Source of the DNA: Maridesulfovibrio ferrireducens
Lineage (GTDB): Bacteria; Desulfobacterota; Desulfovibrionia; Desulfovibrionales; Desulfovibrionaceae
Length of the DNA: 64,000 nucleotides
Assembly (NCBI RefSeq): GCF_016342405.1
Contig: NZ_JAEINN010000005.1
Location: 124,001-188,000 of the forward strand
Direction: 5' to 3'
The position numbers and the translations under genes were made by a program. Each line of letters starts with the position of its first letter. Position 1 is the stretch's first letter. The notes under the pieces are model-generated. The model made no database searches and was not told the DNA's origin. It saw only the letters and a list, made by a program, of their open reading frames with translations. Shown one piece after another: positions 44,074-64,000 of the stretch.

Positions 44074-44107
44074 AAAAAGCCGGGCCGAAATTCTCGACCC
44101 GACTTTT
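44074..44107 (-). terminator. Terminator after flagellin
   Basis: AAAAGCCGGGCCGA and TCGACCCGACTTTT form a stem with mismatches that allow G-U pairing, with an A run to the left for minus-strand termination. Confidence 0.75.
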
Positions 44108-44111
44108 ATCA

Positions 44112-44150
44112 TTAATCTGACTTTTGTCAGAATGGAGTCTGTCAGATTAA
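44112..44150 (-). repeat. Inverted repeat immediately after flagellin
   Basis: TTAATCTGAC (44112-44121) and GTCAGATTAA (44141-44150) are perfect arms, with an inner CTGAC/GTCAG alternative. It lies between the flagellin stop and the terminator and may protect the 3' end of an abundant mRNA. Confidence 0.65.
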
Positions 44151-44161
44151 GCGGTTTTTAG

Positions 44162-45043: not shown

Positions 45044-45135
45044 GTTTTCCTCCTTGAAGTGATATTGGCGTCCTTGCCAAAAACATTGCTCTGGAACTCA
45101 GGTTCACAAAGCTATCTGGTCCTTCCGTGCTAATC

Positions 45136-45162
45136 TGATCGTCTACTATTTAGATTTCTTTA
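45136..45162 (-). promoter_or_regulatory. Sigma-28 (FliA) type promoter of flagellin
   Basis: On the minus strand TAAA (45159-45162) is followed by exactly 15 bases and GACGATCA (45136-45143), close to the consensus TAAA-N15-GCCGATAA. It gives a 5' UTR of about 85 bases. Confidence 0.65.
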
Positions 45163-45190
45163 GAGGAACAGCGGTTTTTTGTTTGTTAAA

Positions 45191-45230
45191 TAAAAAAAGA
45201 GGATTTCCAGTAGATACTGGAAATCCTCTT
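45191..45230 (-). terminator. Terminator after tsaB
   Basis: GAGGATTTCCAGTA pairs perfectly with TACTGGAAATCCTC around GA. Seven A to its left provide the U tract on the minus strand. Confidence 0.9.
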
Positions 45231-45257
45231 CGTAAAATGCAGGTTGGTTGTGATATT

Positions 45258-47132: not shown

Positions 47133-47140
47133 ATTTTGCC

Positions 47141-48343: not shown

Positions 48344-48391
48344 AATCTTAATTCCGTCGTGTTTTGTGAGCTGAAAGTTTTTAGGCTCTGT

Positions 48392-49195
48392 TTAGAAAAA
48401 GGCGTGTAACTGTCTTGCCAGAATATACACGGGGAGCGCAAGGACAAGACTGTCTATTCGGTCTAAAACTCCGCCGTGTCCCGGAAGAATTTTTCCTGAA
48501 TCTTTAACGTCGAGTTTCCGCTTGAGTGCGGATTCAAAGAAGTCTCCCATTTGAGAAGCTATGTTTAAAGATGCGGCAAGGATAACCCATGAAAGGATTG
48601 ATGCGTTGCCTAAATATCTTCCGTATACAGTGCAACAGATAATACAGGCAATAAAGCCTCCGATTGATCCTGCCCATGATTTTTTAGGACTGATACGCGG
48701 CCATATTTTTTTCTTGCCGAAATAAGTTCCGGCGTAAAAAGCTACGGTGTCAGAGGCAGAGGATGAAAGGAGAACAAAAAGTATTTCCCAGCTGTTCATG
48801 GAAGTTAAAAACTGAAGAGTCAAAGGGATGTATATCAGCCCGGAAAAAAGAATCAGGGAGTCGTTGTATGAGGCTCTGCCCGGGGTGGCGCTGTACGAGA
48901 AAAGAAATTTTAAATTAAATATCCAGAAAAGGGCGAGTAATAAAATTATTACCCATGTGGGGGAAGCTAAAGCCGCAGTCAAAATTATTGCGGCTCCTGA
49001 AATCATGCCGATTATTTTTGAAAAAGTGCGGGAGTTTTCCTTCCAGAACATGGAATAAAATTCGTGGAGCGCTACAACTGAGAAAACAGTCACTGCTCCC
49101 ATGAGGACGTATCCTCCTAAGTATAATGCGAGAAAAAGAGCAAAGACAAGAAGTACTGAGGTTATAATCCGCTGCTGCAAGGTGCTTAAGGTCAT
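48392..49195 (-). CDS. cdsA: Phosphatidate cytidylyltransferase
   Basis: Makes CDP-diacylglycerol from phosphatidic acid and CTP in the inner membrane. It has 267 residues with about eight hydrophobic segments. The family signature is near the C-terminus: SGKILPGHGGVLDRIDSLVL, with PKKSWAGSIGGF before it. The frame opens at TTG 49219, but ATG 49195 has AGAGGA just upstream. uppS, usually next to cdsA, is not found upstream here. It is first of the cdsA-dxr-rseP-tsaB series. Confidence 0.94.
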   Translation of the reverse strand: MTLSTLQQRIITSVLLVFALFLALYLGGYVLMGAVTVFSVVALHEFYSMFWKENSRTFSKIIGMISGAAIILTAALASPTWVIILLLALFWIFNLKFLFSYSATPGRASYNDSLILFSGLIYIPLTLQFLTSMNSWEILFVLLSSSASDTVAFYAGTYFGKKKIWPRISPKKSWAGSIGGFIACIICCTVYGRYLGNASILSWVILAASLNIASQMGDFFESALKRKLDVKDSGKILPGHGGVLDRIDSLVLALPVYILARQLHAFF

Positions 49196-49681
49196 GAAAT
49201 CCTCTGTTAAAATTTCCAATGAATTCGTGCTGGAAAGATTATTTTTGTATTGTTTTTTTTGGATATTATTTGCATTTAAGCGGTTTTTTTATGTATCAAA
49301 AATAAAAAATTAATCAGTTTTTTGGTGTTCAAGTTCGATTAACATTCATAAAAAACTGCATAATTATAATTCATTAATAGGTATCGGGCAACCCGTAGAA
49401 CCTCCTTTTTAAAGATTAGTTAGAGCATAATGAAAATAAAAATTTTAATAGCAGCTAAATCTGATAGAATCAGGTGTGTTTATATTGATTAACGTAAGTA
49501 GATTGAATCTATATGAATAAGTTTAATAAAAGTTTACCAGCTATCTATACGAAGTTATATGATAACGTAAATATTTATGATATTTTAATCATATAATAAA
49601 AAGAGTTGAGTAGCTGGTTTCTATGCAGTATGTTTAAGTATTAGCTGATGACTTTATGTTGCTGCACAGGGGGATACCAGC
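49196..49681. other. 486-base intergenic region upstream of the HD-GYP gene
   Basis: Very AT-rich region between divergent genes. It holds several short palindromes: CTGATAGAATCAG (49461-49473), TAGATTGAATCTA (49499-49511) and ATGAT/ATCAT near 49577. A small CGGG/CCCG hairpin with flanking AGGT/ACCT lies near 49379-49403. No ORF or certain promoter is seen; the palindromes may be regulator sites. Confidence 0.5.
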
Positions 49682-51430
49682 GTGGGGGATGTTTTGAAAA
49701 AGAAGATTGCCAAAATAAATGTGACGGGCGCTACAGCCATTGAGAAAATTCTTAATGACATGATAGAAGAGACTCAGTGCGTCACGTGTCAGAAGGCGTT
49801 GAAAGATCTTACTAAACCCGTTCTTTCAGCTGTTTCAAGTATGTTCGGTGAGCAGATGGATCTTGTGGACAGGCTTACTGAGATAGGTCTGGCTCTTTCC
49901 GGGGAAACAAGGCTTGAGCGTCTTTTAGAAATGATAGTTGATGAAGCCCGTGTTTTGACAAAAGCCGATGCCGGGACTCTTTATATTGTGGATAAAAATA
50001 ACCGGAAGCTTGAATTTTCCATCCTTCAGAATGACACTATGAATGTGCGCATGGGCGGCACCAGCGGTAATGAAATAACTTTGCCACCTGTTCCTCTTTA
50101 TACCTCCGGCAATACTCCTAATAAATCTCACGTTTCCGCTTATTGTGCCCTGACCGGTGAAACTGTCAATATTGCAGATGTTTATGAAGCTGAAGGGTTC
50201 GATTTTACCGGGCCGCGAAAGTATGATGCCGCAACCGGATATCGTTCAAAATCGATGCTTGTTCTGGCTCTAAAAAATCACGAACAGGATATAATCGGTG
50301 TTTTGCAGCTTCTTAATGCTCTTGATAGTAACGAAAAAGTCGTTGAATTTTCAACAGATGTTGTAGATATCGTGGGTTCTCTTGCTTCACAAGCCGCCAT
50401 TGCTCTCACAAATGCTCAGCTCATTCAGGGCCTTAAAGATCTTCTTTATTCTGTTATCCAGAGTATTGCCGCGGCTATTGATGCAAAGTCTCCTTATACT
50501 AACGGGCATATTGAGCGGGTTGTGGATCTTACTATGATGATAGCTGAAACTGTTAACAGAGCAACTGAAGGCAAGTTCGCAGATATGCAGTTTACCGTAG
50601 ATGAACTGGAAGAGTTGAAGCTTGCGGCTTGGATGCACGATGTAGGAAAAATTTCTATTCCTGAGCATGTGGTAGATAAGTCTACTAAACTTCAGACTAT
50701 TTATGACCGTTCAGAGCTTGTCGATAACCGGTTCAGGTTGATTTCTGAACTTGTGAAAAACAGGCAGCTTGAAGAAGTTGTTCAAGTTTTGTCCAACGGA
50801 GCCGGGACTAATAAAATTTCTGCAATTGAAATGCGATATGCTGTTGAACTGGAACAGCTCGAAGATGACAGGAAATTTATTGCTTCCTGCAATATCCCTA
50901 ATGAATTCATGACTGATGAAAGGATTGCAAGGGTTCGCGAAATTGCGGCGCGTACTTACGAGAGCGGAGGAGAGTCTTTTAACTGGTTGAGTGATGATGA
51001 AGTTACCAATCTGTGCATACGTAAAGGGACTCTGACAGATCGTGAACGCAAGGTTATAGAAAGTCATGCAGCTATTACATATGAAATGCTTTCAAGGCTT
51101 CCTTTTCCCAAGAGATTATCGTGCGTGCCTGAGTATGCCGCTGGGCATCATGAAAAAGTTGACGGTTCAGGATATCCGAAAGGGCTGGCGGAAAAGGAAC
51201 TCTCCTTGCAATCGCGAATTATGGCGGTAGCCGATATCTTTGAAGCGCTTACAGCTAAAGACAGGCCATATAAAAAACCTATGAAACTTTCTCAGGCAAT
51301 TAAAATACTCGGGTTTATGGAGAAGGACAGGCATATTGATTCTGATGTGTATAAGCTTTTCCTCGATTCAGGGTTATATATGGAATACGCAAAAGCCGAG
51401 CTGGACCCCTCGCAGATTGAAGAAGATTAA
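49682..51430 (+). CDS. GAF-HD-GYP cyclic-di-GMP phosphodiesterase
   Basis: Probably hydrolyses c-di-GMP. It has 582 residues: N-terminal region with CVTCQKAL, a GAF sensor (about 65-245, LAKADAGTLYIVDK-like TKADAGTLYIVDKNNRKLEF) and an HD-GYP domain (about 255-565). HD residues are in WMHDVGKISIPEHVVDKS, then HH and GYP in AAGHHEKVDGSGYPKGL. Between them lies an insertion of about 110 residues absent from most HD-GYP domains. The start is GTG 49682 after AGGGGG. The pel locus begins 2 kb downstream, so it may lower c-di-GMP seen by PelD; that is inference. Confidence 0.9.
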   Translation: MGDVLKKKIAKINVTGATAIEKILNDMIEETQCVTCQKALKDLTKPVLSAVSSMFGEQMDLVDRLTEIGLALSGETRLERLLEMIVDEARVLTKADAGTLYIVDKNNRKLEFSILQNDTMNVRMGGTSGNEITLPPVPLYTSGNTPNKSHVSAYCALTGETVNIADVYEAEGFDFTGPRKYDAATGYRSKSMLVLALKNHEQDIIGVLQLLNALDSNEKVVEFSTDVVDIVGSLASQAAIALTNAQLIQGLKDLLYSVIQSIAAAIDAKSPYTNGHIERVVDLTMMIAETVNRATEGKFADMQFTVDELEELKLAAWMHDVGKISIPEHVVDKSTKLQTIYDRSELVDNRFRLISELVKNRQLEEVVQVLSNGAGTNKISAIEMRYAVELEQLEDDRKFIASCNIPNEFMTDERIARVREIAARTYESGGESFNWLSDDEVTNLCIRKGTLTDRERKVIESHAAITYEMLSRLPFPKRLSCVPEYAAGHHEKVDGSGYPKGLAEKELSLQSRIMAVADIFEALTAKDRPYKKPMKLSQAIKILGFMEKDRHIDSDVYKLFLDSGLYMEYAKAELDPSQIEED

Positions 51431-51466
51431 TACCAATGCTATTTTTTCCAGTTATCAAGCCGCTTA

Positions 51467-51991
51467 TTAACCGACCTTTCTTTTTAAGTTTCTAAGAATT
51501 TCTTCTACTGATTCGTCTATCGTGACGTGTGCTGTGTTAATTATAAAATCGGGGTTCTCAGGAGCTTTATACTCAGAGTTGTATCCTACAAGAGTATCAA
51601 TTATTCCTTTTTTTGCCTTCTCATATAGGCCTTTAGGGTCTCGTTCAGCACAAATTTCGATTGGGCAATTAATATAACCTACGGTAATTTTATGTTTTTG
51701 TTTGCTTATAAGACATCTGGCTTCGTCTCCAGCGGTAAGAGCGGAGGTGATTGTTGAAACATTTGCATCTCTGGCTTTTTTTGTAATAAAAAAACAAGCC
51801 TGTACTACTCGTAATCGTTCATTTTTTGAAAACCCATGATTTTCGCCGAAAAGATTTCGAACTTCATCTCCATCGATATGTATGACCGAAATTCCTTCAT
51901 CTTTTAGCCTTTTGATTAAAGCAATCGCCAGTGTGGTCTTTCCTGCAGAAGTCGGCCCCATAAGCCAGAGAGAAAAAGGCTCACAAAACAT
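51467..51991 (-). CDS. Adenylylsulfate (APS) kinase-like protein
   Basis: A 174-residue P-loop kinase. Walker A is GPTSAGKTT (residues 12-20), then IDGDEVRNLFGENHGFSKNE and RVVQACFFITKKA, and the APS-kinase-like RDPKGLYEKAKKG. APS kinases make PAPS for sulfation. The loop is GPTSAGKT rather than GLSGSGKS and no sulfate assimilation gene is nearby, so the substrate may differ. It is divergent to nothing obvious, lies between the HD-GYP gene and the pel region, and has a hairpin just upstream. Confidence 0.75.
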   Translation of the reverse strand: MFCEPFSLWLMGPTSAGKTTLAIALIKRLKDEGISVIHIDGDEVRNLFGENHGFSKNERLRVVQACFFITKKARDANVSTITSALTAGDEARCLISKQKHKITVGYINCPIEICAERDPKGLYEKAKKGIIDTLVGYNSEYKAPENPDFIINTAHVTIDESVEEILRNLKRKVG

Positions 51992-52020
51992 TTACATCTC
52001 CAGAATTTTTTCATTTATTA

Positions 52021-52050
52021 TAACTCCGCCGGCTGTTGACGGCGGAGTTA
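52021..52050 (-). other. Perfect hairpin upstream of the APS-kinase-like gene
   Basis: TAACTCCGCC (52021-52030) and GGCGGAGTTA (52041-52050) are perfect arms around a 10-base loop. It lies 29 bases before the ATG at 51991 and lacks a T run, so it may be a 5' UTR element or an operator rather than a terminator. Confidence 0.55.
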
Positions 52051-52200
52051 TGGCAGAAGCCAATGTATGGTATACTGTGACCCGCAAGGGGTACTTCAGA
52101 GAAAGTCTTTTTGTCCAGAGAGGATTCTAATAATACGGTTTTTAACAGTCCTAAAAAATAGAGGATATATAGTAAAGTTCAGTTGTAAATATTATTTGAC

Positions 52201-53160
52201 TTAGTCGCCTTTATTTCCTCTGCGATATCGGTCAAAGTCAGTCAGTGTGTCGAGAGCTGCGTCCGGCGTTGCCCCGTAGGGAATGATCGGAAAGTTCAGA
52301 GCTTTAACTTTTTTCAGATAATTGGGATATTGATCTTCTTTGATGTATTCTACATCAAGAATAGTTATCCCTGAATCAGAAAGTTCTTTTGCCAAACTAA
52401 GTCTGTAATTTTGATCTTCTTTGCTGAAAACATTGGTCAGCAGACTTTCCAGACCGACCATGTTTACTGTTTTGAAATATACATCGCGGTAGACAGGTGA
52501 ACAGTCGGCAATTACTCCCAGCCCGTTCTGAGGGCAGATAATAAAATCTTTACCTGATTTTGCACGGCAGTAGTCAGCAATTCTTTTAATTAGTTTGACC
52601 ATGTCATCTGCTGCGGATTCTATGTCTACACCCTGTTCATGCCAGAACCAGTATCCATCTATAATGTCCAAGTAAACTCCGTCAAATCCTGCTTCTAAGA
52701 TGCGGTCCAGATATGGGCGCAGTCCTGTTTCCCACCAATCCTCGCGCCAATAGCGCACTTTATAATTTGCAGGCCAGTCCGGGTTTTCCGGCCCGAGAAA
52801 ATTCGGAGGATTATCCTTCCATTTATTCTGCCAGTAAAATCTGTATTCTTCAGCTTCACCAATGGAAAAATAGCAGAGGACCGTCTTGTCGAATTTGTGA
52901 AGAACGGAAATGTCTTTAGTTGTGAATTTTTTGCTGTCGGTTCCATCTGCCGAGTAATCCATCACAATTAAATCGTATGGTGATTCAGCCAACCCAGCAA
53001 TAGATGGAGCTTGCAGCCAGTAAGCCCAGCTTGTAATATCTTTTTGTGCTTTGTGAATAGTTTGCTTCAAGGGTGCCTTTTGGGGGCTTTCAGGTTGCTT
53101 TGCTGTGCATGAAGTTATTGTCATAAGTATGAGTGCCGTAAATAGATATTTAAATTTCAT
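52201..53160 (-). CDS. Endo-alpha-1,4-polygalactosaminidase family (GH114-like) lipoprotein
   Basis: A 319-residue lipoprotein with signal peptide and lipobox TITSC (cysteine about residue 18). The rest is a TIM-barrel domain of the TM1410/GH114 family: SWAYWLQAPSIAGLAESPYD, VLCYFSIGEAEEYR, GFDGVYLDIIDGYWFW, with acidic residues at the strand ends where catalysis occurs. It resembles the PelA hydrolase at 54086-54916. GH114 enzymes cut alpha-1,4-linked galactosamine polymers, and Pel is such a polymer, so it may trim or release the polysaccharide. It is divergent from pelC. Confidence 0.82.
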   Translation of the reverse strand: MKFKYLFTALILMTITSCTAKQPESPQKAPLKQTIHKAQKDITSWAYWLQAPSIAGLAESPYDLIVMDYSADGTDSKKFTTKDISVLHKFDKTVLCYFSIGEAEEYRFYWQNKWKDNPPNFLGPENPDWPANYKVRYWREDWWETGLRPYLDRILEAGFDGVYLDIIDGYWFWHEQGVDIESAADDMVKLIKRIADYCRAKSGKDFIICPQNGLGVIADCSPVYRDVYFKTVNMVGLESLLTNVFSKEDQNYRLSLAKELSDSGITILDVEYIKEDQYPNYLKKVKALNFPIIPYGATPDAALDTLTDFDRYRRGNKGD

Positions 53161-53516
53161 AATGTTATGTTGATTCCTGCTGTTACTCTACATGGAACTA
53201 TATTTATAATTTGATATTACAGAAAATTGTAGCATTTCATTGTGGAAAATAAAAGTAAGATCCTTGTTGCTTCTTTATAAAAGTGCGATGGAGAGGCTTA
53301 AAAGATTGAAAATTTCTTTTCATTGTAATCATTAAGGTTTATTAGTTATTACAAAGTTTATATTTGCTTGATTGAATTATAGTTATCACTTTATTGGTAT
53401 CAGTTAGAATGTTTGGCAGATATTTTATGTAAGCAGTTATTTTTATTAAAACATATTTTAATCTCATAAGAGATTCTAAATACTTAATCTTTGACTTGGA
53501 GTTAGGAGGGGTAAAA
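53161..53516. other. 356-base intergenic region between the GH114 lipoprotein and pelC
   Basis: AT-rich region that must contain the divergent promoters of the lipoprotein and of the pel operon. I could not choose convincing -35/-10 boxes. No ORF, strong hairpin or repeat is seen. Confidence 0.55.
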
Positions 53517-54077
53517 GTGAAAAGATCTTTATTTGCCGTGATGTTTTTGGTCATGATTCTTGCGGGGTGTTCCGGATCATACATGAAAGGATATGTTCAG
53601 CCTCAAGGTATTGCTAGTGAAGCTCGTCATGCCGCTGTTCTTCCTCTGGTTAATTTGACCACGACACCGAATGCCGGACGGATGGTCGGTGATTTGCTCT
53701 CAACAGAGCTGTATTCTTCCACGAAGTTTGACCTGATGGAATCTACAGACATGCTCAAACGCGTGAAAGGGGAAGATGATGATCTGGAATTTGTAATGGA
53801 AGATGTAGTGGCTCAAAAAGTCGGAACCCGTCTTGGTGTTGATACCATTATTTACGGTTCGGTATCTGAATATCAGTACAAACGCGGCGTAAATCAAAGC
53901 CCAACTGTTGGAATAAACCTCAGAATGATTGATGTCTCTTCAGGGAAAGTTCTTTGGGCTTCATCTGTATCTAAGAGTGGAGGTTGCTTTTTCGGATGCA
54001 CAGAATCTTTAAACAGCGTAGCTCAGGAAGCCTTGACAGAAATAGTCGCTTCAATGGCCTCTGTTCCGGCTCAATAG
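53517..54077 (+). CDS. pelC: PelC-like outer-membrane lipoprotein
   Basis: A 186-residue lipoprotein; PelC forms a ring at the outer membrane that guides Pel to the PelB barrel. The start is GTG 53517 with AGGAGGGG before it; the open frame starts at TTG 53496 but lacks such a site. The lipobox is MILAGCSGSY. The CsgG-like fold is shown by HAAVLPLVNLTTTPNAGRMV, LLSTELYSSTKFDLMESTDM and VGTRLGVDTIIYGSVSEYQY. It is first in the operon; in Pseudomonas, pelC comes third after pelA and pelB. Confidence 0.82.
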   Translation: MKRSLFAVMFLVMILAGCSGSYMKGYVQPQGIASEARHAAVLPLVNLTTTPNAGRMVGDLLSTELYSSTKFDLMESTDMLKRVKGEDDDLEFVMEDVVAQKVGTRLGVDTIIYGSVSEYQYKRGVNQSPTVGINLRMIDVSSGKVLWASSVSKSGGCFFGCTESLNSVAQEALTEIVASMASVPAQ

Positions 54078-54085
54078 TTTTTCTC

Positions 54086-54916
54086 GTGGTGTTAATATCA
54101 TTTTCATTGTTCGGTAGTACCTTTGCTTTTGGTAAAAGCAAAAATCAGGTGTCGACATGGAGTTGTTATTATGGACAGCAGGATAAGACTGAGGAATTAG
54201 CCCGGTTCGATCTTGTTGTTTTAGCCGTTGGTGGTCAAAATCCGGTTCCTTTGCGCAAGGCCGGTGTTAAATGTCTTGTATACGTGAGTCTTGGTGAAGT
54301 GCATGCGGACAGTCCTTATTACGCTGAAGCCGCAAAATCAGGATTGCTTGTCAGTTATAATGAGAACTGGAATTCATGGGTTGTTGATATCCGCCGTCCT
54401 GAATGGAAAAAAATGCTTTTTGAGCAGATTATCCCTGATGCGCTCAAGGCCGGATATGACGGTCTTTTTTTTGACACGCTGGATTCTCCGATTGATATGC
54501 AGAGGCGAGACCCTGATACCTATAAAGGGACTGAGCGTAGCTCGGTGGAATTGATAAAAGACATCCGAAAGCATTATCCTAAGCTGCTTCTTTGCCAGAA
54601 TCGCGGATTTGATATTATTCAGAGATCCGGACCATATGTTGATTATTTTCTGATTGAAGGGCTTAGCAGTTCCATGGATATCGGTACGCAGATCAGAAGT
54701 GATGTAACGGAAAAAGATCGTGATTTTTTGATTTCCAAGGCACGAGCAGCCTTGAAAAATAATCGTAAACTTGTGGTTCTGAGCCTGGATTATGTTCCTT
54801 TTGATGATGTGAAGAATATTGATAAGGCCTATGACTTTTCACGCAAACAAGGATTCGTGCCCTATGTCAGCACCCCTGAACTTAATCAGGTTAATACCTA
54901 TGCGCCTGCTCCTTAG
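54086..54916 (+). CDS. pelA: PelA-like glycoside hydrolase (N-terminal half of PelA as a separate protein)
   Basis: A TIM-barrel hydrolase of the GH114/GH166 type, about 276 residues. Motifs are STWSCYYGQQDKTEELARFD, CLVYVSLGEVHADSPYY, VVDIRRPEWKKML and GYDGLFFDTLDSP, with acidic residues at strand ends. It matches the hydrolase half of PelA, but ends with a stop before the deacetylase half. The start is uncertain: GTG 54086 gives a short hydrophobic leader just after pelC; ATG 53996 gives a longer, basic leader (about 50 residues) overlapping pelC by 82 bases. Neither has a good ribosome binding site. Confidence 0.8.
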   Translation: MVLISFSLFGSTFAFGKSKNQVSTWSCYYGQQDKTEELARFDLVVLAVGGQNPVPLRKAGVKCLVYVSLGEVHADSPYYAEAAKSGLLVSYNENWNSWVVDIRRPEWKKMLFEQIIPDALKAGYDGLFFDTLDSPIDMQRRDPDTYKGTERSSVELIKDIRKHYPKLLLCQNRGFDIIQRSGPYVDYFLIEGLSSSMDIGTQIRSDVTEKDRDFLISKARAALKNNRKLVVLSLDYVPFDDVKNIDKAYDFSRKQGFVPYVSTPELNQVNTYAPAP

Positions 54917-56984
54917 TTTTATTCTTCTTATGATCTCTGTTTCTGTCGCTGTTCCGGCGAGTCATGCGGCTCCGCTCAAGCGTAAAGTTCTGGTTTTTTA
55001 TAATGGTGCAGAAGAGCGGACGGCCAGATCAAATCTTTTTGTAGAAGGATTTGCCATGCCGCTTAATTATTTCGGAATCCTGTACGAGATTCGCGATATA
55101 AATAAGCGTCCGCTTCCTGACGAGAAGGAAATGGAACAATATCTGGGAGTTTTTACTACTTTTTCAGATGAGATAATGGTGGAACCGGAAGAGTATCTGA
55201 ATTGGCTTATTAAGCAGCAAAAAAATAATCGCAAAGTTATTATTGCAGGTAATATTGGTGCGAGGCGGGATCTTAATGATAAAAACGTTGATTCTGCTTT
55301 GATAAAGAAAGTTTATTCCAATTTAGGTTTTTCATGGCAGGGCAATGCCACCAACGCCCGTACTCGCCTTTTGTACGATTATGTTGATCAAAAGCAGATG
55401 AATTTTGAGCGCAAATTATCTCTTTTCCCTTCCAGATATATCCCTATTGTTCCCGCTGATGAGCAAGCCAAATCGTGGGTGACTGTAAAGATTAAGGGTA
55501 AGCCTGATTCTGAAGGCTGTGTTGTTGGTGTCAGTCCGAACGGAGGTTTTGCTCTTGATGGATACATACGCTGGCAGGATCCTGTTAATTATCTTAAGCA
55601 GTGGTATTTAAATCCTTTTGAATTCTTAAAACAATCTTTGGATCTTACTGGATTACCTGCTTTGACTCCTACTACTCTGAATGGTCTTAGAGTCGCATTT
55701 GCTCATATCGATGGCGACGGTTTTGCCGGGTATACTGAAATTGATAAAAACAAGAATTGCGGTGAAATAATAATGGAGCGAATTTTTGCCCGTTATGACT
55801 TTCCGAATTCAGCATCAGTAATTGCCGGAGAAATTAACCCCGATGTCAGGGGAAGTCTGACGAATGTTGAACTGGCGCGAACTCTTTTTGAAATGGAGAA
55901 TATTGAACCGGCTTCTCATTCATATACTCATCCTTTTGCTTGGAATGAAAAGTTGAGAGATTCTCCTGACTACGCCGACAGCTTTGTTATCGGGCAGTAT
56001 GAGAAAGACGGGTATAAGTTTAATGCAAAGTATGAAATCGTAGATTCCTGTGAATATATTTCTACTGATCTAGCTCCACCTACGCGTCCTTGTAAGACGC
56101 TTTTTTGGTCAGGAATGTGTGATCCAACCGAGGATCAGGTTGCAATTGCCACGAAAGCCGGAATTCTTAACCTGAACGGCGGCGGTACTGTTTTTGATGC
56201 CCGCCGTAATTCATATTTCGGAGTATCTCCTCTTTATAGAGAGCTTGGTAAGGAAAGTCAGATTTATACAGGGCAGGCAAATGAGAATATCCTGACGAAT
56301 TTGTGGGAAGGTCCATTTTTCGGATTCCGCAATATTGTGGAGACCATGAAGCGGACCGGATCACCCCGCCGGATTATGCCAATCGATATTTATTATCATT
56401 TTTACAGCGGTGAAAAGTTTGCGTCTCTCAAAGCACTGGAAGATGTTTACGATTGGGTTGTCGCGCAGGACTGTGCGAACATTTATGCGTCGGCCTACAT
56501 TAAAATGGTCGAAGGATATCTTTCTGGCAAAATTGAAATTATAGATGCCGATAACTTTGTTGTAACTGATTACGGGAATTGTCTTTCTCTGCGACTGGGC
56601 GGAGCTGATAAGGTTCCAGATCTTTCCAGATGTAAAAATGTTCTCGGGTATGATGTTCAGCCGGAAGGAATATTTGTGCATTTGAATCCGGGAAAAGAAC
56701 GGGCAGAAGTTGTATTATCTTCAAACCTTAAAGTGAATTCAAACTTTGCATATATTAAAAACGGTTCAGGTTGGATAAGAGATTTTCAGCATTCCCAAAG
56801 AGGAGTGCGGTTTATATTTGAATGTTTTGGAAAAGGAAAAATTGTAGTAGGCGGCCTTAAACCTGATCAGACATATAAAGTTCTCGGAAATAATTTTTCG
56901 GAATTAGAGGTGCGCAGCAATAATGGCGGCGAGGTTGTTTTACAGGATGTAACGTCAGGACCGTTGGAGATTTCGCTGATTTGA
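54900..56984 (+). CDS. pelA: PelA-like polysaccharide deacetylase (C-terminal half of PelA as a separate protein)
   Basis: A 694-residue periplasmic protein with signal peptide (MRLLLSFILLMISVSVAVPA, cut near HAAP). A Rossmann-like part (about 25-250) is followed by a deacetylase domain (about 260-520): HIDGDGF (His269, Asp271, Asp273) and SHSYTHP (His340, His344) are the metal and catalytic motifs. A C-terminal beta-rich part (about 560-694) follows, as in PelA. It would remove acetyl groups from the alpha-1,4-GalNAc chain. ATG 54900 overlaps the hydrolase gene by 17 bases; the open frame upstream to 54819 is not used. Confidence 0.84.
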   Translation: MRLLLSFILLMISVSVAVPASHAAPLKRKVLVFYNGAEERTARSNLFVEGFAMPLNYFGILYEIRDINKRPLPDEKEMEQYLGVFTTFSDEIMVEPEEYLNWLIKQQKNNRKVIIAGNIGARRDLNDKNVDSALIKKVYSNLGFSWQGNATNARTRLLYDYVDQKQMNFERKLSLFPSRYIPIVPADEQAKSWVTVKIKGKPDSEGCVVGVSPNGGFALDGYIRWQDPVNYLKQWYLNPFEFLKQSLDLTGLPALTPTTLNGLRVAFAHIDGDGFAGYTEIDKNKNCGEIIMERIFARYDFPNSASVIAGEINPDVRGSLTNVELARTLFEMENIEPASHSYTHPFAWNEKLRDSPDYADSFVIGQYEKDGYKFNAKYEIVDSCEYISTDLAPPTRPCKTLFWSGMCDPTEDQVAIATKAGILNLNGGGTVFDARRNSYFGVSPLYRELGKESQIYTGQANENILTNLWEGPFFGFRNIVETMKRTGSPRRIMPIDIYYHFYSGEKFASLKALEDVYDWVVAQDCANIYASAYIKMVEGYLSGKIEIIDADNFVVTDYGNCLSLRLGGADKVPDLSRCKNVLGYDVQPEGIFVHLNPGKERAEVVLSSNLKVNSNFAYIKNGSGWIRDFQHSQRGVRFIFECFGKGKIVVGGLKPDQTYKVLGNNFSELEVRSNNGGEVVLQDVTSGPLEISLI

Positions 56985-59818
56985 ATATCAAGTTGTGGCG
57001 AATACTTTTATTTGTGCTCATAATTATCGGAGCCACCGTTCTTATCTATCCTTTCCCGAGAGATATGGTTCCGCTGTATCTAAAAAGCGGTGAGATAGCG
57101 AAGGCTTCTGATTTAATTTCGACACTTTTGGATGAAAATCCTGATGATCTGCAACTGCTTACTATAGGAGCGGATGTTTATCTTGTCCGTGGATTGCCGG
57201 ATAAGGCCATTGCCAGTTTAAATAGAGTTCTTGAATTTAAGCCGAAGGATCTTGCTGTTCTTGAAAAACTGGTTCAGTTTTACGAATGGAATGTTATGCC
57301 TCGTGAGGCTTTGCAGACATGGGAGAGGATCTCAAAAATAAGTTCAAAACATAAAAAGCCATTTGAAAAACTGGTTATGTATTATCGTTTTTACAACATG
57401 ATTCATGACGAAGTCGGCGCGATTATAAAGTTGAACAATTTACAGTCAACTCGTGAATTTACCGATGTTTTTCAAAAAGGGATAAATCTAGAAGTTGCCC
57501 GGCTCTCCGGAAAGTACGATGAACAAAAAGAAGATCCCTATCAGGATTATCTTATCAGGCATATTTTTATAGTAGGCGAGCAGTTCAGAATTGCTCTAGC
57601 TGATAATGAGAAAATTAATTATTTAGAGTTTGTTACTTATGCTCTTGAATATTATGTTGAAGTTGATCGTATTGAAGAGGCTTTATCCTTTGCTTCTTAT
57701 ATGGATAAAGAAACGGGGAAGGGATTAAAAAATCGTATTCAACTTGTTAAAGTTCTTGGCTGGTCTCAGCAATATACTGCTGCTTTGGATTTGGCGGAAA
57801 AATTATATAAGATTAAGCCGGATAGCACCATATTGCTTAGAGAAATGGTCTGGTTGGCTCAGAGTTTAAACAGATATGATCTAGCTGAGTTTTCATTGGA
57901 ACAGTTGGTGCGCATTGAGCCTGATAATAACCAGCATCGTGAAGATCTGGGGAATATGTATATGCAGACCGGAAAATTCGGTCAGGCCGTGGCTCTTTTT
58001 CGTGATTTGGCAGATAAAATTGGTAATTTATTCAAATATGCTCATGATATGTTAAGAGCTGCTTTATATAGTTCTGATACAAAGTTGATGGCAGAAGTCG
58101 TGGCAGAGACTGAATCTCTTAATATTTCTGATCCTGAATATCAGCGTACAAGAGCTGAACTTTTACTCGGACTTAATCGTCCCCGCGAAGCATATGCAAT
58201 GCTTAGGGCCGTGGCTGAAGGGCCCGGCGGTGAAATCGAAGATTATGTCAGACTGTTGGACGCTGCCGGAGCAACAGGAGATGATAAGCTTGTTGCAGAG
58301 ACCGTCGATTTAGCCTTACGTTTTAAGCCGGATGACATTTCACTCATGCGCCAAGGGGCCGAGGCTTGGATGAATGCCGGTAATCCTTTAAAATCATATC
58401 AATTATATCGTAAAGTCGTTCGCAAAGAAGGGCAGGAGAAAGACGTTATAGGTATGCTGCTTGCCGCTGCGGAAACTCAGAAAATTAAAACCGCAAAAGA
58501 GGCTGCCGGATACGCAACTAAGGTGTTGCCCGATAATATTAAAGTTCTGTCTCAGGCCGGGGAGATAATGCTTTGGCTGAATTCTCCGGTTGACGGTTAC
58601 CCCTATTATAAAAAGGCTGCGGTCCTGACCGGCGGAGAGAAAGAAGCTGTTATGAGGCTTATGCAGGTGGCGTCTTTTACTGCTGACAGCAAAATTTTTA
58701 GGGATGCGGCTACAACTGCGGTTAAATTAAGACCTTATGATGAACAGGTTGCAATGCTTGCCGCAGGAGTCTGGGCTGCTGCCGGAGACATGGAAAAAGC
58801 GAAACAGTTGATAGTCCGGTTTGCAGATAGAAAGGGCGAAACGTATGAAATGCTTCTTCAATGGGCTGATTTAGCAGATAAATCAGGACTTACCGAAGAA
58901 GCTTACAGGCTTTATGATCAAATTTATTCGTTGAATTCTAAAGATAAAAAGGTCCGCGCAAACTTGGCAAGGCTTGCAGGCTGGACGAATCGGCCAAAGG
59001 TATCTGCGAAGCTTTTCGGTGAGATGTCTGATGAGCAACCGGGTAGTTTTTCTTTGGCAATACAGGCCGCAAAAGGGTATTCTGACTCAGCCGAATATGC
59101 CACGGCTGTCGGTTATTATGAACGGGCTTTGTCTCTCAAAACGAGTGACACTGATTTAAAGCTTGAACTGGCTCTTAATTATGGTCTTGCAGGAATGAAT
59201 GCGAAGCGGATCATCCTGTTGCAGGATTTGTATATACAGGGAGTGCTTCCACAGGGTGAAAAGATAGAATTGGCCAGAGCATATCTTGAAGAAAAAGATC
59301 CGCAAAAGGCTTTGGAAATTCTTGAACCTTATGCGCGTCTTAGGACTCTACCAAGATTTGAAGGGTTTTTGCTTGCTTCCGCTTATGATCAGGCTGGGCG
59401 CGGGCGCGAAGCCTCTGAAATTTATAAGAGGCTTGGACGTGAACATAATAAGGATGGAATTTTTATGGCTAGGCTTGGAGCTGAGGCCCTCTTTAATAAT
59501 CATATTGATGAGGCTTTTCATTTGTTTGAATCAGCTCTCAGGGTGGATAAAAAGAACCAGACTGCGCTAAAGGGGATAGCAATAATTTATACTGAACGAA
59601 ATGAGTATAAAAGGGCTATCGCCAAGTTCCGGGCATATAATAGAATTGTACCGGATGATGCCGATGCCAGATTTCAGCTTGGAGAGATATTTTTGCTGGT
59701 TAACAGAGAGGGTGATGCTGTAAGGGAATTTAAAAGAGCGAAGCGGATATTAAAGAGACAAGGGAAAGTTCAAAAGAATCTATCCATTCAAGCTAAAAAG
59801 ATAATCGACAGGGAATAA
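56981..59818 (+). CDS. pelB: PelB-like TPR protein with N-terminal membrane anchor
   Basis: A 945-residue protein with one N-terminal helix (about 5-25, LWRILLFVLIIIGATVLIYP) and then TPR units almost to the end (for example LAVLEKLVQFYEWNVMPREA, DARFQLGEIFLLVNREGDAV). PelB of Pseudomonas has the same anchor plus long TPR scaffold joined to a beta-barrel; here the barrel is on the next gene. The TPR part binds the deacetylase PelA and guides polymer through the periplasm. TTG 56981 overlaps the previous stop by 4 bases. Confidence 0.82.
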   Translation: MNIKLWRILLFVLIIIGATVLIYPFPRDMVPLYLKSGEIAKASDLISTLLDENPDDLQLLTIGADVYLVRGLPDKAIASLNRVLEFKPKDLAVLEKLVQFYEWNVMPREALQTWERISKISSKHKKPFEKLVMYYRFYNMIHDEVGAIIKLNNLQSTREFTDVFQKGINLEVARLSGKYDEQKEDPYQDYLIRHIFIVGEQFRIALADNEKINYLEFVTYALEYYVEVDRIEEALSFASYMDKETGKGLKNRIQLVKVLGWSQQYTAALDLAEKLYKIKPDSTILLREMVWLAQSLNRYDLAEFSLEQLVRIEPDNNQHREDLGNMYMQTGKFGQAVALFRDLADKIGNLFKYAHDMLRAALYSSDTKLMAEVVAETESLNISDPEYQRTRAELLLGLNRPREAYAMLRAVAEGPGGEIEDYVRLLDAAGATGDDKLVAETVDLALRFKPDDISLMRQGAEAWMNAGNPLKSYQLYRKVVRKEGQEKDVIGMLLAAAETQKIKTAKEAAGYATKVLPDNIKVLSQAGEIMLWLNSPVDGYPYYKKAAVLTGGEKEAVMRLMQVASFTADSKIFRDAATTAVKLRPYDEQVAMLAAGVWAAAGDMEKAKQLIVRFADRKGETYEMLLQWADLADKSGLTEEAYRLYDQIYSLNSKDKKVRANLARLAGWTNRPKVSAKLFGEMSDEQPGSFSLAIQAAKGYSDSAEYATAVGYYERALSLKTSDTDLKLELALNYGLAGMNAKRIILLQDLYIQGVLPQGEKIELARAYLEEKDPQKALEILEPYARLRTLPRFEGFLLASAYDQAGRGREASEIYKRLGREHNKDGIFMARLGAEALFNNHIDEAFHLFESALRVDKKNQTALKGIAIIYTERNEYKRAIAKFRAYNRIVPDDADARFQLGEIFLLVNREGDAVREFKRAKRILKRQGKVQKNLSIQAKKIIDRE

Positions 59819-59820
59819 TT

Positions 59821-61743
59821 TTGAAAAAGGTCCGTGACTTAAAAATTTTTATTTTGGCAGTAGCATGTTTGCAACTGTTGATCTTATCCTCTTTTCTTCA
59901 GGCTGAAGAAAGAATTGTGTCATCGACATCCGTAGCTCAAAATAGTCCTTTTGTAAAAAAATACGGTTCTAAGAGGGTGTGGACTGTTCGAATTTCATCT
60001 TTTTTGAGAGCAGAGAATGCTTGGAATTTTTATTCATATCTTCAAAAGCTTGGTTTTAAGCCTGTAATGGTCAGGCTTTTTGATTCAAAATATCGTTTGT
60101 GGAATATTGTTCAGATCGGAGATTATCCCACACGCAGTCAAGCTAAAGCTTCCGGACGTTCTTTTAAGAAAAAGATGAATCTCGATTATCAGATTAAGAG
60201 TATGAATTTAGGGTTTCTCGCTGCAAGAAAGGCTACTTCACCTGATACTCCTTTGCCTCTAAGACCTGATAAAACATTTGTAGGTGATCCGGTCAGACCA
60301 AATGTTGTTAAAACTGGTCCGGCGGATGGGAATATTCCAGAGGATTTAAAGGGCGGATCAGAAGAATTCTTTTATGAAATTGATCAGAATGATGTGTTGC
60401 GGGCCGTTTCTCAGCGTCAGCGTGAAGTCATTTTGGCGCGCATAATGGTCCGTCGCGGTTATGTAGATGACGGAATTAGATTGTATGAGAAGTTGGTTAA
60501 AATTTATCCCGAAGATATGGATTTGCGCGAAGAGTACATTTCTACCCTGATTGATAATGAGGAATATAACAACGCCGAAAGTCTGCTTCAAGGTTGGCTT
60601 GACGATGACCCTGTAGCCGCAGGAGCTTTGCGTCAATCGGCACGTCTTAAACTGCTTACAGGTGATTATGCTCAGCAACAGGCTTCCCTTAATTATATTT
60701 TACAGCTGCGCCCCGGAGATACTGATGCGTTGTCTTCCAGTGCATATGGGCGTCAGGAAGGGGGAGACTGGCTTGGAGCTATCGAGAGTTTTTCCGAACT
60801 GATTGACCGCGAGCCTAACAATGTTGATGCGCGTCGCGCTTTGTCCGGTCTTCTAACGCAGCGTAGACCTCGCTTGGGCCTTACTCCGCGAGTTTATTTG
60901 CAGACTAATGACACAATTACAACTTCAATGAAGACGAATTTTTCTATGCAGCTAGACAGCCTGACGCGGGGCGAATTTATTTATGATTTTGCGCAGATTT
61001 ATCGGCCTGAAGGGGATGGCATCGAGAAGGTTGATAAAACAATCAACCGTGCAGTCTTTTTGTTTCGCAGAGATTTTTCACGTAAATTTACCGGAATTTT
61101 AGGCATCGGTGCTTTTGAGGGGACAGCAGAAGGGGTTACCGGAGCGCTTGGTTTTGACTGGCTGGTTCACGATTCCGGTCCTGTTTCATTTTTGGTTGAT
61201 TATAATAATCCGTGGATTGATGAGCCTTCCGCAGCAAATTATAAAGGTCGTTATAATCAGGTTTCGCTGACGTATGACGGATTTTATAATGACACTTGGG
61301 GATTGTTCATGAACGGACAGGTTCGTCAGTATGTTGTGGATAATGACAGATTGTATGGGACCAAAGGTATTTATAATGTTATTTTAACAAGAAAGCTTTT
61401 GAATAATCCTGAACTGTATGTATCCTATTCATATTATCGGTCACATTTTAAATACGATGATGAAAATTATACTCCGATTACATTGGTACAAAATGAGAGT
61501 ATTCATACTTTGAGCACAAGTTTTAGTAAGTGGTTTTGTGAGACTATAGGGGTTCAGGTTGCCGGAGGTATAAGACAGGATGAGTTTAAAAGTTCTCCGA
61601 GTTATTTTGCTTCTCCTAATTTGATTGTGCGACTGGGTGAGCGATGGGAATTTAACGCAGGATATGAGTATAGCAGTGATTCCGGGCTAGCTGGCGGAGG
61701 TGAAAGTCAGGCTATTACTGGTGGCATCAGTTATGTTTTCTAA
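59821..61743 (+). CDS. pelB: SPOR-TPR-beta-barrel outer-membrane protein (PelB exporter half)
   Basis: A 640-residue protein with signal peptide (about 1-30, ending FLQAEE). A SPOR-like domain (about 48-130: VWTVRISSFLRAENAWNFYS, WNIVQIGDYPTRSQAKAS) normally binds peptidoglycan. A few TPR units follow (about 205-345), then a C-terminal part of alternating strands (about 350-640, LTPRVYLQTNDTITT, LYVSYSYYRSHFKYD) ending in the aromatic residue of GISYVF, as outer-membrane barrels do. It is the likely pore for Pel. The SPOR domain is not a feature I know in PelB. TTG 59821 follows AGGGAA. Confidence 0.78.
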   Translation: MKKVRDLKIFILAVACLQLLILSSFLQAEERIVSSTSVAQNSPFVKKYGSKRVWTVRISSFLRAENAWNFYSYLQKLGFKPVMVRLFDSKYRLWNIVQIGDYPTRSQAKASGRSFKKKMNLDYQIKSMNLGFLAARKATSPDTPLPLRPDKTFVGDPVRPNVVKTGPADGNIPEDLKGGSEEFFYEIDQNDVLRAVSQRQREVILARIMVRRGYVDDGIRLYEKLVKIYPEDMDLREEYISTLIDNEEYNNAESLLQGWLDDDPVAAGALRQSARLKLLTGDYAQQQASLNYILQLRPGDTDALSSSAYGRQEGGDWLGAIESFSELIDREPNNVDARRALSGLLTQRRPRLGLTPRVYLQTNDTITTSMKTNFSMQLDSLTRGEFIYDFAQIYRPEGDGIEKVDKTINRAVFLFRRDFSRKFTGILGIGAFEGTAEGVTGALGFDWLVHDSGPVSFLVDYNNPWIDEPSAANYKGRYNQVSLTYDGFYNDTWGLFMNGQVRQYVVDNDRLYGTKGIYNVILTRKLLNNPELYVSYSYYRSHFKYDDENYTPITLVQNESIHTLSTSFSKWFCETIGVQVAGGIRQDEFKSSPSYFASPNLIVRLGERWEFNAGYEYSSDSGLAGGGESQAITGGISYVF

Positions 61744-61770
61744 TATTATTTATTCAGCGGGTTGCAAATA

Positions 61771-63180
61771 ATGCTTAAGGTTCATGCTGTCGTAAAAAAA
61801 TATAAGCTCTCAAAGTATTTTGAAGTGTTAACAGGAGTAATTACACTCACTGTTATTAATTTTATTTTTTTCCGCTCTGATCTAGGTTTTATTAACGTGT
61901 CTCCTCATCCCTATTGGATTATCGTGTTGCTTACCGCTTCCCGTTATGGGTTCAGTGGCGGAGCATTTGCGGGATTTATCACAGCTGTGGCCTATTTTGG
62001 ATTTGTACTGCTTTCAATTCCGGACCTTGCTCTTGTTGAATTTAAAAGTCTTTCCATGTGGGGAAAGCCTGCTTTGTTTTTTATTGTGGGTGTTGTGATT
62101 GGCGAAATGCGGGAACTTAATATCAAAGAATATAGTTTGTTAAGTGAAGAGCGCGATGCCTATAAGGAAGCCTTCAATAAAATAAAAATAAAATTTGATG
62201 TCTTAAGTGAAGCAAAGCAGGAAATTGATACCAGAATTATTTCTCAGGAAAACACTTTGGGAACTTTGTATGAGGCTGCGCAAGGTCTTCGTACTTTGAG
62301 TCAGGAAAGTATTTTTCCTGCGGTTCTTGAGATTCTTATAGAGTTTATGAGTGTCGAAGATTGTTCTATTTATACCCTCGAGGGTGATGAATTTAAGCTG
62401 AATACCGCGATAAGGCATGGGAGAAGTTCGCTACCTGACAGAATCCCTTATTATGAAGGTTTAATGGGATTGGCAGCTGAAGATAAAAAAACAGTTTCGA
62501 TTAAAGAAGTGGCAGATTCTGAAAGCATGCCGAGCGGTATAATTATCTCCGCACCGATTTTAGCAGATAATCAAAAACATGTTATCGGCGTCCTGAATGT
62601 CGAAAAAATGCCGTTTATGAAATTTAACAGTGACTCTGTGCGAGTTGCCGGACTTGTTGCCGACTGGTGCGGAAGCAGTATTGAAAACGCGACAATATTT
62701 CAAGAGACCAAAGATAAACTCATCGCAGATGAAATGATTGATGCTTATACTTATGATTATTTCAAAAGGAGATTGCGTGAGGAATTTGTAAGATCACGCA
62801 GGTATGAGCTGGATTTATCACTAATTTTATTAGAATTTCCAAGTATGGAAAATGCTTCGGATGATGGTAGAGAAGAAGTTTTGATGGCTTTCAGTATGAT
62901 TTTGAAAAATCAGATTCGCGAAATTGATATTTTGTTTTTGAATGATAAGCCCGGTTCTTTTTTTCTGGTCTTGCCGACAACTCCGGTGGCAGGTGCAAGG
63001 GTTGTCGTTAAGAATATTTTGAATGCGTTTAGAGCGCTGAGTATGATGGCATTTGAGTCCGATGAAAGTCTGGTTGAGATTCGGGCCGGAGTGTCTGGCT
63101 ACTCTATGGGTATGGAAGATCCTATGGACATGGTTAAAGCCGTAGAAGAGGATGTCGTCAGTGTTTTATTCGCGGAGTAA
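61771..63180 (+). CDS. pelD: PelD-like c-di-GMP receptor
   Basis: Inner-membrane regulator of 469 residues: about four helices (about 18-115), a coiled coil, a GAF domain (about 180-320) and a degenerate GGDEF domain (about 325-469). The GGDEF site is KPGSF, so cyclase activity is unlikely, but the I-site REID (Arg383, Asp386) that binds c-di-GMP in PelD is kept. ATG 61771 is chosen over TTG 61762; no strong ribosome binding site is seen for either. It would activate the synthase PelF once c-di-GMP rises. pelE overlaps its last 29 bases. Confidence 0.87.
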   Translation: MLKVHAVVKKYKLSKYFEVLTGVITLTVINFIFFRSDLGFINVSPHPYWIIVLLTASRYGFSGGAFAGFITAVAYFGFVLLSIPDLALVEFKSLSMWGKPALFFIVGVVIGEMRELNIKEYSLLSEERDAYKEAFNKIKIKFDVLSEAKQEIDTRIISQENTLGTLYEAAQGLRTLSQESIFPAVLEILIEFMSVEDCSIYTLEGDEFKLNTAIRHGRSSLPDRIPYYEGLMGLAAEDKKTVSIKEVADSESMPSGIIISAPILADNQKHVIGVLNVEKMPFMKFNSDSVRVAGLVADWCGSSIENATIFQETKDKLIADEMIDAYTYDYFKRRLREEFVRSRRYELDLSLILLEFPSMENASDDGREEVLMAFSMILKNQIREIDILFLNDKPGSFFLVLPTTPVAGARVVVKNILNAFRALSMMAFESDESLVEIRAGVSGYSMGMEDPMDMVKAVEEDVVSVLFAE

Positions 63181-64000
63181 AATAATCCTTTCAGCGCGGC
63201 TTTGGTTCGCTGCCGCCTTTTTATTTGCATATTGGTTTGAAACTGGTGCGTTCTGGTTTTATGTGAACAGGTCTGAATCTCCCTATTTTGTCTACGCTGC
63301 TGTTTTGTCGCATACTTTTGCAGCATTATCTTTTTTTATTACGAGGCCGAAGCCCAGAGCTTTGCCGGGGATCGGATATTATTATCCCCGCTTGGCAGCT
63401 CTTTTTACTTTTTTCATGCCCGGTATCGGACTTTTGGGTATTTCAATGACTTTGTTTATGTCCAGAGTTTTTATGACAAGTCACGGTCTTGCCGAGGAAT
63501 ATAAAGAAAAAGCTTTTGAGGGAAGCGGTATAGATGTTGATCTTCCCGAAGATATTAATGTTTTTTTGTATGAAGAATTGGATATTCATCCTATTGCGGA
63601 TATTCTTGCCGGGGATGATGTCGGAATGAAGCGTGGCGCTGTTAATCTGCTCAGGCGGATTGGGTCGGCAGAGGCTGTTTCATTACTTAGAAAAAGTCTG
63701 TCAGATGAAAATGCAGAGGTCCGTTTTTACGCACATATCGCTCTTGCTCGCCTAGAAGAAGATTATGCTCAGTCATTGGATAAAGCTGAGATACGCACTA
63801 AAAAATATGGTAGTGCACAATCTTACGCAGAGCTTGGGTCTGTCTATAGAAAATATGCTCAAAGCGGTCTCCCAGAAATTAATATTCAGGAACAATCAAT
63901 GAAATCGTCTTGTGATAACTGGAAGATTGCTTCTGAAATGGTTCCTGAGAATACTGATTATCTTATGAGGCTGGCAGAAATTTATATTGAGAGCCAGAGG
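63152..64000 (+). CDS. pelE: PelE-like membrane protein with helical repeats (partial, runs off the window)
   Basis: The frame from ATG 63152 stays open for 283 codons to the window edge. Two hydrophobic N-terminal segments (AARLWFAAAFLF-like RLWFAAAFLFAYWF, then YFVYAAVLSHTFAALSFFI) and a third (LAALFTFFMPGIGLLGISMT) precede a soluble part with HEAT/TPR-like units, such as EAVSLLRKSLSDENAEVRFY. PelE in Pseudomonas is a small inner-membrane protein with TPRs that joins PelD in the synthase complex. The start overlaps pelD by 29 bases, showing coupling. The identity rests mainly on order and topology; pelF and pelG should follow. Confidence 0.72.
   Translation, partial: MSSVFYSRSKIILSARLWFAAAFLFAYWFETGAFWFYVNRSESPYFVYAAVLSHTFAALSFFITRPKPRALPGIGYYYPRLAALFTFFMPGIGLLGISMTLFMSRVFMTSHGLAEEYKEKAFEGSGIDVDLPEDINVFLYEELDIHPIADILAGDDVGMKRGAVNLLRRIGSAEAVSLLRKSLSDENAEVRFYAHIALARLEEDYAQSLDKAEIRTKKYGSAQSYAELGSVYRKYAQSGLPEINIQEQSMKSSCDNWKIASEMVPENTDYLMRLAEIYIESQR

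Follow-up and report, generated by a model that had tools for sequence, protein, structure and literature searches.

A conserved pel exopolysaccharide operon in Maridesulfovibrio ferrireducens whose modification and export proteins are each likely made as two polypeptides

The stretch of DNA studied here comprises bases 124001-188000 of contig 5 in the 4.2 Mb draft genome of Maridesulfovibrio ferrireducens (family Desulfovibrionaceae). These 64 kb are referred to as the window, and positions are those of the window unless a fetched locus is named. From position 53517 to about 68090 runs a complete operon for the exopolysaccharide Pel, pelC through pelG plus an epimerase gene, in which PelA and PelB are each encoded by two genes. 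The end of pelG lies about 3 kb and that of the epimerase gene about 4 kb beyond the window. L-numbers denote the fetched pel loci, G-numbers genomes and g-numbers genera of our survey. The genes of the operon are, in order:

53517..54077, plus strand: pelC, outer-membrane lipoprotein, first gene of the operon (profile match to the PelC structure)
53996..54916, plus strand: pelA-H, separate GH166 hydrolase of 306 amino acids (match to PDB 5tcb)
54900..56984, plus strand: pelA-DA, separate deacetylase of 694 amino acids (match to PDB 9cgy)
56981..59818, plus strand: pelB-N, TPR scaffold of 945 amino acids (AlphaFold2 model)
59821..61743, plus strand: pelB-C, outer-membrane export protein of 640 amino acids (Pfam SPOR, AlphaFold2, Foldseek)
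61762..63180, plus strand: pelD (GAF, degenerate GGDEF, RxxD I-site)
63152 to about 64222 (L005:2153-3223), plus strand, running past the window end: pelE (operon position)
L005:3201-4736, outside the window: pelF (NCBIfam NF038011)
L005:4740-6110, outside the window: pelG (Pfam PF16933)
L005:6132-7091, outside the window: sugar-nucleotide epimerase gene

A first reading of the window from its letters alone (the sequence-only reading) had proposed a Pel locus with split PelA and PelB. The open reading frames it named are present where it had placed them, and the Pel identity is borne out by family matches for PelC, PelA-H, PelA-DA, PelF and PelG. It had also staked this identity on pelF and pelG following downstream. 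Extension past position 64000 revealed both, PelF as a GT4 glycosyltransferase (NF038011, 519 bits, cut-off 100) and PelG as the translocase (PF16933, E 2.7e-137), and because both are present the assignment stands. A genome search found PelG encoded once. By PelG, the closest named record is 'Desulfovibrio sp. isolate Glu_egg_str_bin110' (93% identity), and the other four PelG records found carry the names Desulfovibrio, Desulfovibrionales, Halodesulfovibrio and Desulfovibrionaceae. A PelC profile of 12 relatives matched 9h80_C, the PelC of the PelBC structure (E 9.3e-19); pelC is preceded by AGGAGG and encodes a lipobox, LAGC, recognised by eye. PelD consists of a hydrophobic N-terminal part, a GAF domain and a degenerate GGDEF domain with an RxxD I-site (R386..D389) that is invariant in 22/22 sequences, and a PelD profile that includes three Pseudomonas-like rows reaches PelD structures at E 1.5e-18. 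The PelE candidate has the expected operon position, a hydrophobic N-terminus and HEAT/TPR repeats. The epimerase scored below every NCBIfam cut-off.

Both splits proved real. Gene order and boundaries recur in all 16 loci of the genus (our own and 15 others). In the window, successive genes are out of frame (modulo 3, the hydrolase gene starts at 2, the deacetylase gene at 0, the TPR gene at 2 and the barrel gene at 1), and the second halves each have their own start and a signal- or anchor-like N-terminus. The deacetylase gene starts with an ATG that overlaps the end of the hydrolase gene by 17 bases in the window and by 14 or 17 bases in 14/16 genus loci (L016 and L024 are without this ATG). 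The TTG start of the TPR gene overlaps the preceding TGA stop (TTGA) in 16/16, and the barrel gene starts at most 30 bases from the TPR gene stop, again in 16/16. The hydrolase gene ends on TAG in 14 and on TAA in two of these loci, and the stops of the TPR gene are drawn from TAA, TAG and TGA.

PelA-H matched the hydrolase domain of Pseudomonas aeruginosa PelA (PDB 5tcb) at E 1.9e-25, the match to a GH114-labelled chain being far weaker (6.1e-4), and its active-site Asp and Glu are kept in 18/18 sequences. Because Pfam assigned no family to PelA-DA, a PelA structure was used for its identification: residues 210-597 of 694 match PDB 9cgy (P. thermotolerans PelA) at E 1.2e-68. In the fused PelA of L042, a locus from another family, the PelA-DA match (280-882) follows directly behind the hydrolase match (10-273). 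The flanks of the deacetylase in PelA-DA are expected to be the mixed alpha/beta and beta-rich domains of PelA. PelA-DA has its own signal-like N-terminus, MRLLLSFILLMISVSVAVPASHA, and its Asp motif, the SHxxxHP His pair and the YYH His, a CE21-type active site, are kept in 24/24 sequences; the His pair we take to be metal ligands. For PelA, PMC12022489 names the two hydrolase residues as well as the Asp and the later His of the deacetylase.

The hydrolase gene is a separate open reading frame, as had been read; its start most likely lies inside pelC, at the ATG at 53996 with an overlap of 82 bases. We prefer this start without regarding it as proven. A hydrophobic, signal-like segment of PelA-H follows directly after the pelC stop, and in 16/16 genus loci the frame has an ATG inside pelC and no stop before the pelC end. 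With random synonymous codons the ATG would be expected in 26-31% and the open frame in 6-20% of cases per genome, chances that hold for one genome each and whose product is not a probability. Over 15 genomes (without L019), synonymous change is lower in the overlap, at 0.40, than in the remainder of pelC, at 0.52. Since relatives are not independent, these statistics support the overlapping start rather than prove it. The N-terminus of PelA-H is probably encoded in the 3' end of pelC, in another frame, from the codons of a GGCFFGC loop onward. An alternative start, an in-frame GTG 8-14 bases past the pelC stop in 16/16 loci, is less favoured; it would leave a signal segment that is very short and lacks positive charge.

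The TPR scaffold pelB-N begins with a membrane helix that looks uncleaved, and its AlphaFold2 model contains 51 helices between residues 38 and 926, which make up about 25 TPR-like pairs (predicted local distance difference test, pLDDT, 85.2; predicted template modelling score, pTM, 0.44). For pelB-C, a structure model was made because sequence and profile searches gave nothing or weak matches. Its product has a signal-like N-terminus, a SPOR domain at residues 52-129, nine helices in about four TPR pairs at 198-348 and a 16-stranded barrel at 351-639. Since the barrel chain keeps about four TPRs, the break in PelB lies inside the TPR scaffold and not, as the sequence-only reading had it, at the border between TPRs and barrel, and the barrel gene carries the SPOR domain in addition. 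In P. aeruginosa, the last two TPRs of PelB and a stalk sit in the PelC ring, and the barrel alone fails to co-purify PelC (PMC12141448). By analogy, the TPRs kept by pelB-C appear to correspond to this PelC-docking end. Residues 762-802 of P. aeruginosa PelB, just before the last TPRs, are unresolved in the structure (PMC12141448), which is consistent with a flexible joint.

The SPOR domain scored 27.1 bits in Pfam (cut-off 21) and shows the beta-alpha-beta-beta-alpha-beta order in the AlphaFold2 model. Pfam SPOR matched 17/23 barrel proteins. In the alignment, each of the 16 genus rows contains the stretch and three g24 rows have it in degenerate form; one Trp is common to all 19. Pfam scans gave no SPOR in three g25 proteins or in the L041 protein, whose scanned sequence began near its likely start, and the stretch is missing from the alignment rows of L022, L023, L040 and L051. 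This domain seems to have been gained later, or lost elsewhere. It is of a peptidoglycan-binding type, which suggests a tethering role.

To place the operon in its family and phylum, PelG was searched in both, with our own genome counted in each survey. It was found in 31/288 family genomes, including 16/17 genus genomes listed, and in 12/395 genomes sampled across the phylum, 11 of them over the cut-off (G607 fell below it and is not among the fetched loci). Loci were fetched from all 30 other family genomes and from 10 of other families, in addition to our own. A separate barrel gene is present in 28/28 readable family loci (16 of the genus, two g23, three g24, five g25, one g27, one g37); in G153 and G166 (g25) the region is broken over contigs, and G166 was judged by the length of its open frame alone (529 amino acids). 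The deacetylase is unfused to the hydrolase in 29/29 family loci, that is, in these 28 and in G214. Not counted were G151, where the upstream stretch is masked by N, G175, where the contig ends, and, for PelB, G214. In 23 family loci, pelC and the deacetylase gene flank the GH166 gene. In L033 (G214), the second PelB gene (10073-10837) is TPR-only and the deacetylase occupies two open reading frames. The g25 loci (L053-L057 with L028, L030-L032 and L037) show two facing arms, pelC to pelD on one side and pelE, pelF, pelG and the epimerase gene on the other.

Outside the family, PelA is fused in all six loci with a recognised PelA deacetylase (L042-L047), and PelB is fused in L042, which has the Pfam PelB barrel, and in L043-L045, which align with L042 at 37-47% identity. 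PelB is likewise fused in L048, whose barrel is related to that of our locus; the contig of L048 ends before PelA. Of the remaining loci of the phylum sample, L049 has a separate hydrolase-like open reading frame (96 bits) and no recognised deacetylase, and no deacetylase was recognised in L050 and L051. L051, which belongs to another family, carries separate TPR and barrel genes (L051:3-3439), with this type of barrel, beside and convergent with pelG. In a PelG tree with midpoint root, the family groups with L048 (support 97/91), with a long-branch warning on L048. The separate chains might be the ancestral state and the single chains of Pseudomonas and other lineages later fusions, as every readable family locus is split, L051 separates TPRs and barrel in another family, and PelADA and PelAH are distinct proteins in Gram-positive bacteria too (PMC7112168). 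However, fused PelA (L042-L047) and fused PelB (L042-L045 and L048) occur in families of the same phylum, and these families fall in two places of the PelG tree, a result to be read with its midpoint root and a possibly misplaced L048 in mind. We therefore regard ancestral separation as possible, though doubtful.

Several observations weigh against reading the locus as a complete Pel system with a split PelB. Without the Pseudomonas-like rows, the PelD profile reached PelD at E 1.7e-4 and ordinary GGDEF proteins ranked higher. No PelE-specific profile matched the PelE candidate in the profile searches. In the alignment, the PelC Trp-149 of P. aeruginosa, a residue of the membrane anchor region that is required for the complex there, has no Trp counterpart; the position, counted by hand, adjoins an inserted GGCFFGC-type loop. 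The pelB-C model is moderate (pLDDT 75.9, pTM 0.53), and the five models range from 50 to 76. The Pfam PelB barrel PF24604 was not listed for any of 23 barrel members at E 0.01, comparison with Pfam-type PelB barrels gave a profile-profile probability of 22%, and the barrel profile matched no chain among the PDB sequences. A PF24604 search of our own genome was also without match, and is uninformative given that the control stayed silent in every genome. Finally, the GH166 gene is absent from the operon in six readable family loci (three g24, g27, g37 and G214), and G214 is without any barrel match in its genome.

The lack of a sequence match to the Pfam PelB barrel would also fit an exporter of the PgaA/BcsC type that was recruited into the pel operon together with its TPR gene. 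In Foldseek, BcsC chains and 4y25, presumably PgaA, follow next in the list of matches. The best match, however, is PelB itself in 9h80, the PelBC complex (E 5.7e-15; template modelling score 0.76 on the target and 0.48 on the query). Furthermore, PelC, the partner of PelB, is encoded in the same operon, and in L048 a TPR-barrel chain with 18% identity to the barrel stands directly before pelD, pelE, pelF and pelG. Recruitment is thus improbable in our view, and because no sequence match is available, the identification of the barrel as PelB rests on its fold and its operon position.

If PelA and PelB are two chains each in the genome, fused chains could still be produced by stop readthrough or programmed frameshifting at each junction, and the short overlaps could permit the latter. 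Because the frames differ, simple readthrough cannot join the halves; in addition, the hydrolase and TPR stop codons differ among relatives, and fusion would leave the signal-like segments of the second halves inside the chain. Such products are highly improbable. A further reading, in which single-chain genes only look split through errors in sequencing or assembly or were recently broken as pseudogenes, has a negligible probability even with PelA as one chain in 6/6 loci of other families with a recognised PelA deacetylase (L042-L047), because the same order and boundaries recur in all 16 genus loci, the halves in the window are out of frame and have starts and signal- or anchor-like N-termini of their own, and the catalytic residues are kept in both parts of PelA.

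Next to the operon, three further genes were considered:

52201..53160, minus strand: predicted lipoprotein, GH191-type (TM1410 family) endo-galactosaminidase (profile and PDB match)
L005:7151-8227: HDOD-domain gene after the epimerase gene
49682..51430, plus strand: GAF and HD-GYP protein (cyclic di-GMP phosphodiesterase type)

The first of these scored 228.8 bits with TIGR01370 (cut-off 181.25), the profile of the TM1410 family, and matched TM_1410 in PDB 2aam/9euz at E about 5e-44 (2aam 5.6e-44). A lipobox-like LMTITSC was seen by eye. The TM1410 family is assigned to GH191, enzymes that cut galactosamine polymers (PMC12054363), and the gene is thus predicted to encode a GH191 endo-galactosaminidase. 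It lies divergently beside pelC in 15/16 genus loci, the sixteenth (L015) being cut by a contig end. Over the curated cut-off, GH191 occurs in 25/288 family genomes, 23 of which have PelG, or in 23/31 genomes with PelG versus 2/257 others (Fisher p 3.9e-25, a test that treats genomes as independent, which they are not). Loosening the cut-off to E 0.001 gives 36 matching genomes, of which six lack PelG and 30 have it, some of the latter matching only via the GH166 gene. The GH191 gene shares a contig with pelG in 22 of the 23, at a distance of no more than about 16 kb; in G202 the pel contig breaks off and the GH191 gene stands at the start of another. The eight PelG genomes without GH191 comprise seven with GH166 in the operon (G136, G140 and five g25) and G151 with its masked locus. 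Thus, at least one of the two (GH166 within the operon, or GH191) is encoded in 30/31 PelG genomes, the remaining one being masked; 16 have both, seven GH166 only, and seven GH191 with no GH166 seen in the operon, among them G175, in which that position is cut off. Over the pel loci of the family, GH191 and GH166 show a complementary pattern. The link between the GH191 family and Gram-negative pel loci is drawn from the present survey.

All 15 other genus members have a relative of the HDOD gene in their fetched loci. The HD-GYP gene was seen in 4/16 fetched genus stretches (our own and L025-L027) and is not counted among the components of the system; upstream of pelC these stretches extend by no more than a few kb. 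A search of 44000-64000 against Rfam gave no RNA element. Promoter-like sites in 52100-54000 numbered nine, versus 5.4 in shuffles (standard deviation 2.1), and were not used.

Compared with pelABCDEFG of P. aeruginosa, the locus shares homologues or equivalents of PelA to PelG (PelE by position), the PelD I-site and the PelA active-site residues. It differs in having two chains each for PelA and PelB, pelC as the first gene, SPOR on the barrel chain, additional epimerase and GH191 genes and no counterpart of PelC Trp-149. The TPR scaffold is also longer, with about 25 pairs plus about four, versus 19 TPRs and an alpha-rich region in P. aeruginosa (PMC12022489). The homologue set of that paper contains full-length proteins only, 177 of 1000 BLASTP hits. 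The architecture does depart from the model system, as the sequence-only reading had claimed, yet it is less unprecedented than it seemed, since each fission alone has precedent in print. A 'pelB fission' in aquatic thermophilic species, with PelB spread over more than one gene as here, is named in the legend of Fig. 5 of PMC7112194; the main text of that paper does not name Desulfovibrio. In Gram-positives, PelADA and PelAH are separate proteins (PMC7112168). Bacillus cereus with pelDEADAFG and a separate pelAH resembles the present locus in this respect, but its operon is without pelB and pelC and its pelAH lies beside pelDEADAFG, whereas the hydrolase gene here lies inside the operon (PMC7112168). 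The neighbouring gene at 52201-53160 agrees with GH191 endo-galactosaminidases such as TM1410 (PMC12054363) in both its profile and its PDB match. Among the matches listed in the open PMC library, none reported this double split, or a Pel exporter that bears SPOR, in its title or the opening of its abstract; the search extended neither to supplements nor to most subscription papers.

A TPR part and an outer-membrane barrel are separate proteins also in the AlgK/AlgE export pair of alginate, another polymer, in which the TPR protein is an outer-membrane lipoprotein. In contrast, the long TPR protein of the present locus is anchored in the inner membrane, and the barrel keeps TPRs of its own. 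AlgX-AlgK-AlgE is named in PMC12022489.

Taken together, the locus is likely a complete and conserved Pel synthesis and export operon with its modification and export proteins each made as two polypeptides, and we extend the same good confidence to the following mechanism as a whole. PelD would be switched by cyclic di-GMP at its I-site, and PelD, PelE, PelF and PelG would make and translocate a polymer of the N-acetylgalactosamine type, for which the epimerase gene perhaps supplies uridine diphosphate N-acetylgalactosamine (UDP-GalNAc). The TPR protein, anchored in the inner membrane, would carry the chain through the periplasm and hold PelA-DA, which would deacetylate it. The chain would then be handed to the outer-membrane barrel, whose short TPR stretch may dock in the PelC ring. 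With PelB cut between scaffold and PelC-docking end, the inner- and outer-membrane parts could be built separately and meet through TPR contacts, and through its SPOR domain the exporter would be held at the peptidoglycan. The structure models cover two single chains, the TPR protein and the barrel protein. Assembly of the TPR protein, barrel and PelA-DA in trans is a reasonable inference. In P. aeruginosa, the deacetylase and alpha/beta domains of PelA were modelled as binding PelB, while the isolated hydrolase domain does not bind it (PMC12022489), and for this latter reason PelA-H need not join the complex. The cut in PelA might thus free the hydrolase as a soluble trimming enzyme that a genome could lose or exchange for the neighbouring GH191 enzyme. 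It is tempting to speculate, although we consider it rather unlikely to hold in full, that in this genus the split of PelB allowed the exporter to gain its SPOR domain and directs Pel export to denuded peptidoglycan, for example at the division septum, through two docking half-machines, and that the split of PelA made the hydrolase interchangeable (GH166, a GH191 lipoprotein or both) and set hydrolysis apart from export.

The natural cuts in PelA and PelB fall at the joints suspected in the P. aeruginosa proteins, that is, between the hydrolase and the PelB-binding deacetylase and between the scaffold and the PelC-docking barrel. As separate natural proteins, the parts could be purified and mixed to learn which of them must touch, and the SPOR domain offers a handle on where on the cell the exopolysaccharide is exported. 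The hosts are sulfate reducers, and in other lineages of sulfate reducers a link has been drawn between pel and consortia with methanotrophic archaea (PMC10553843). The pattern of GH166 and GH191 over the family suggests that Pel systems require some galactosaminidase, but none in particular.

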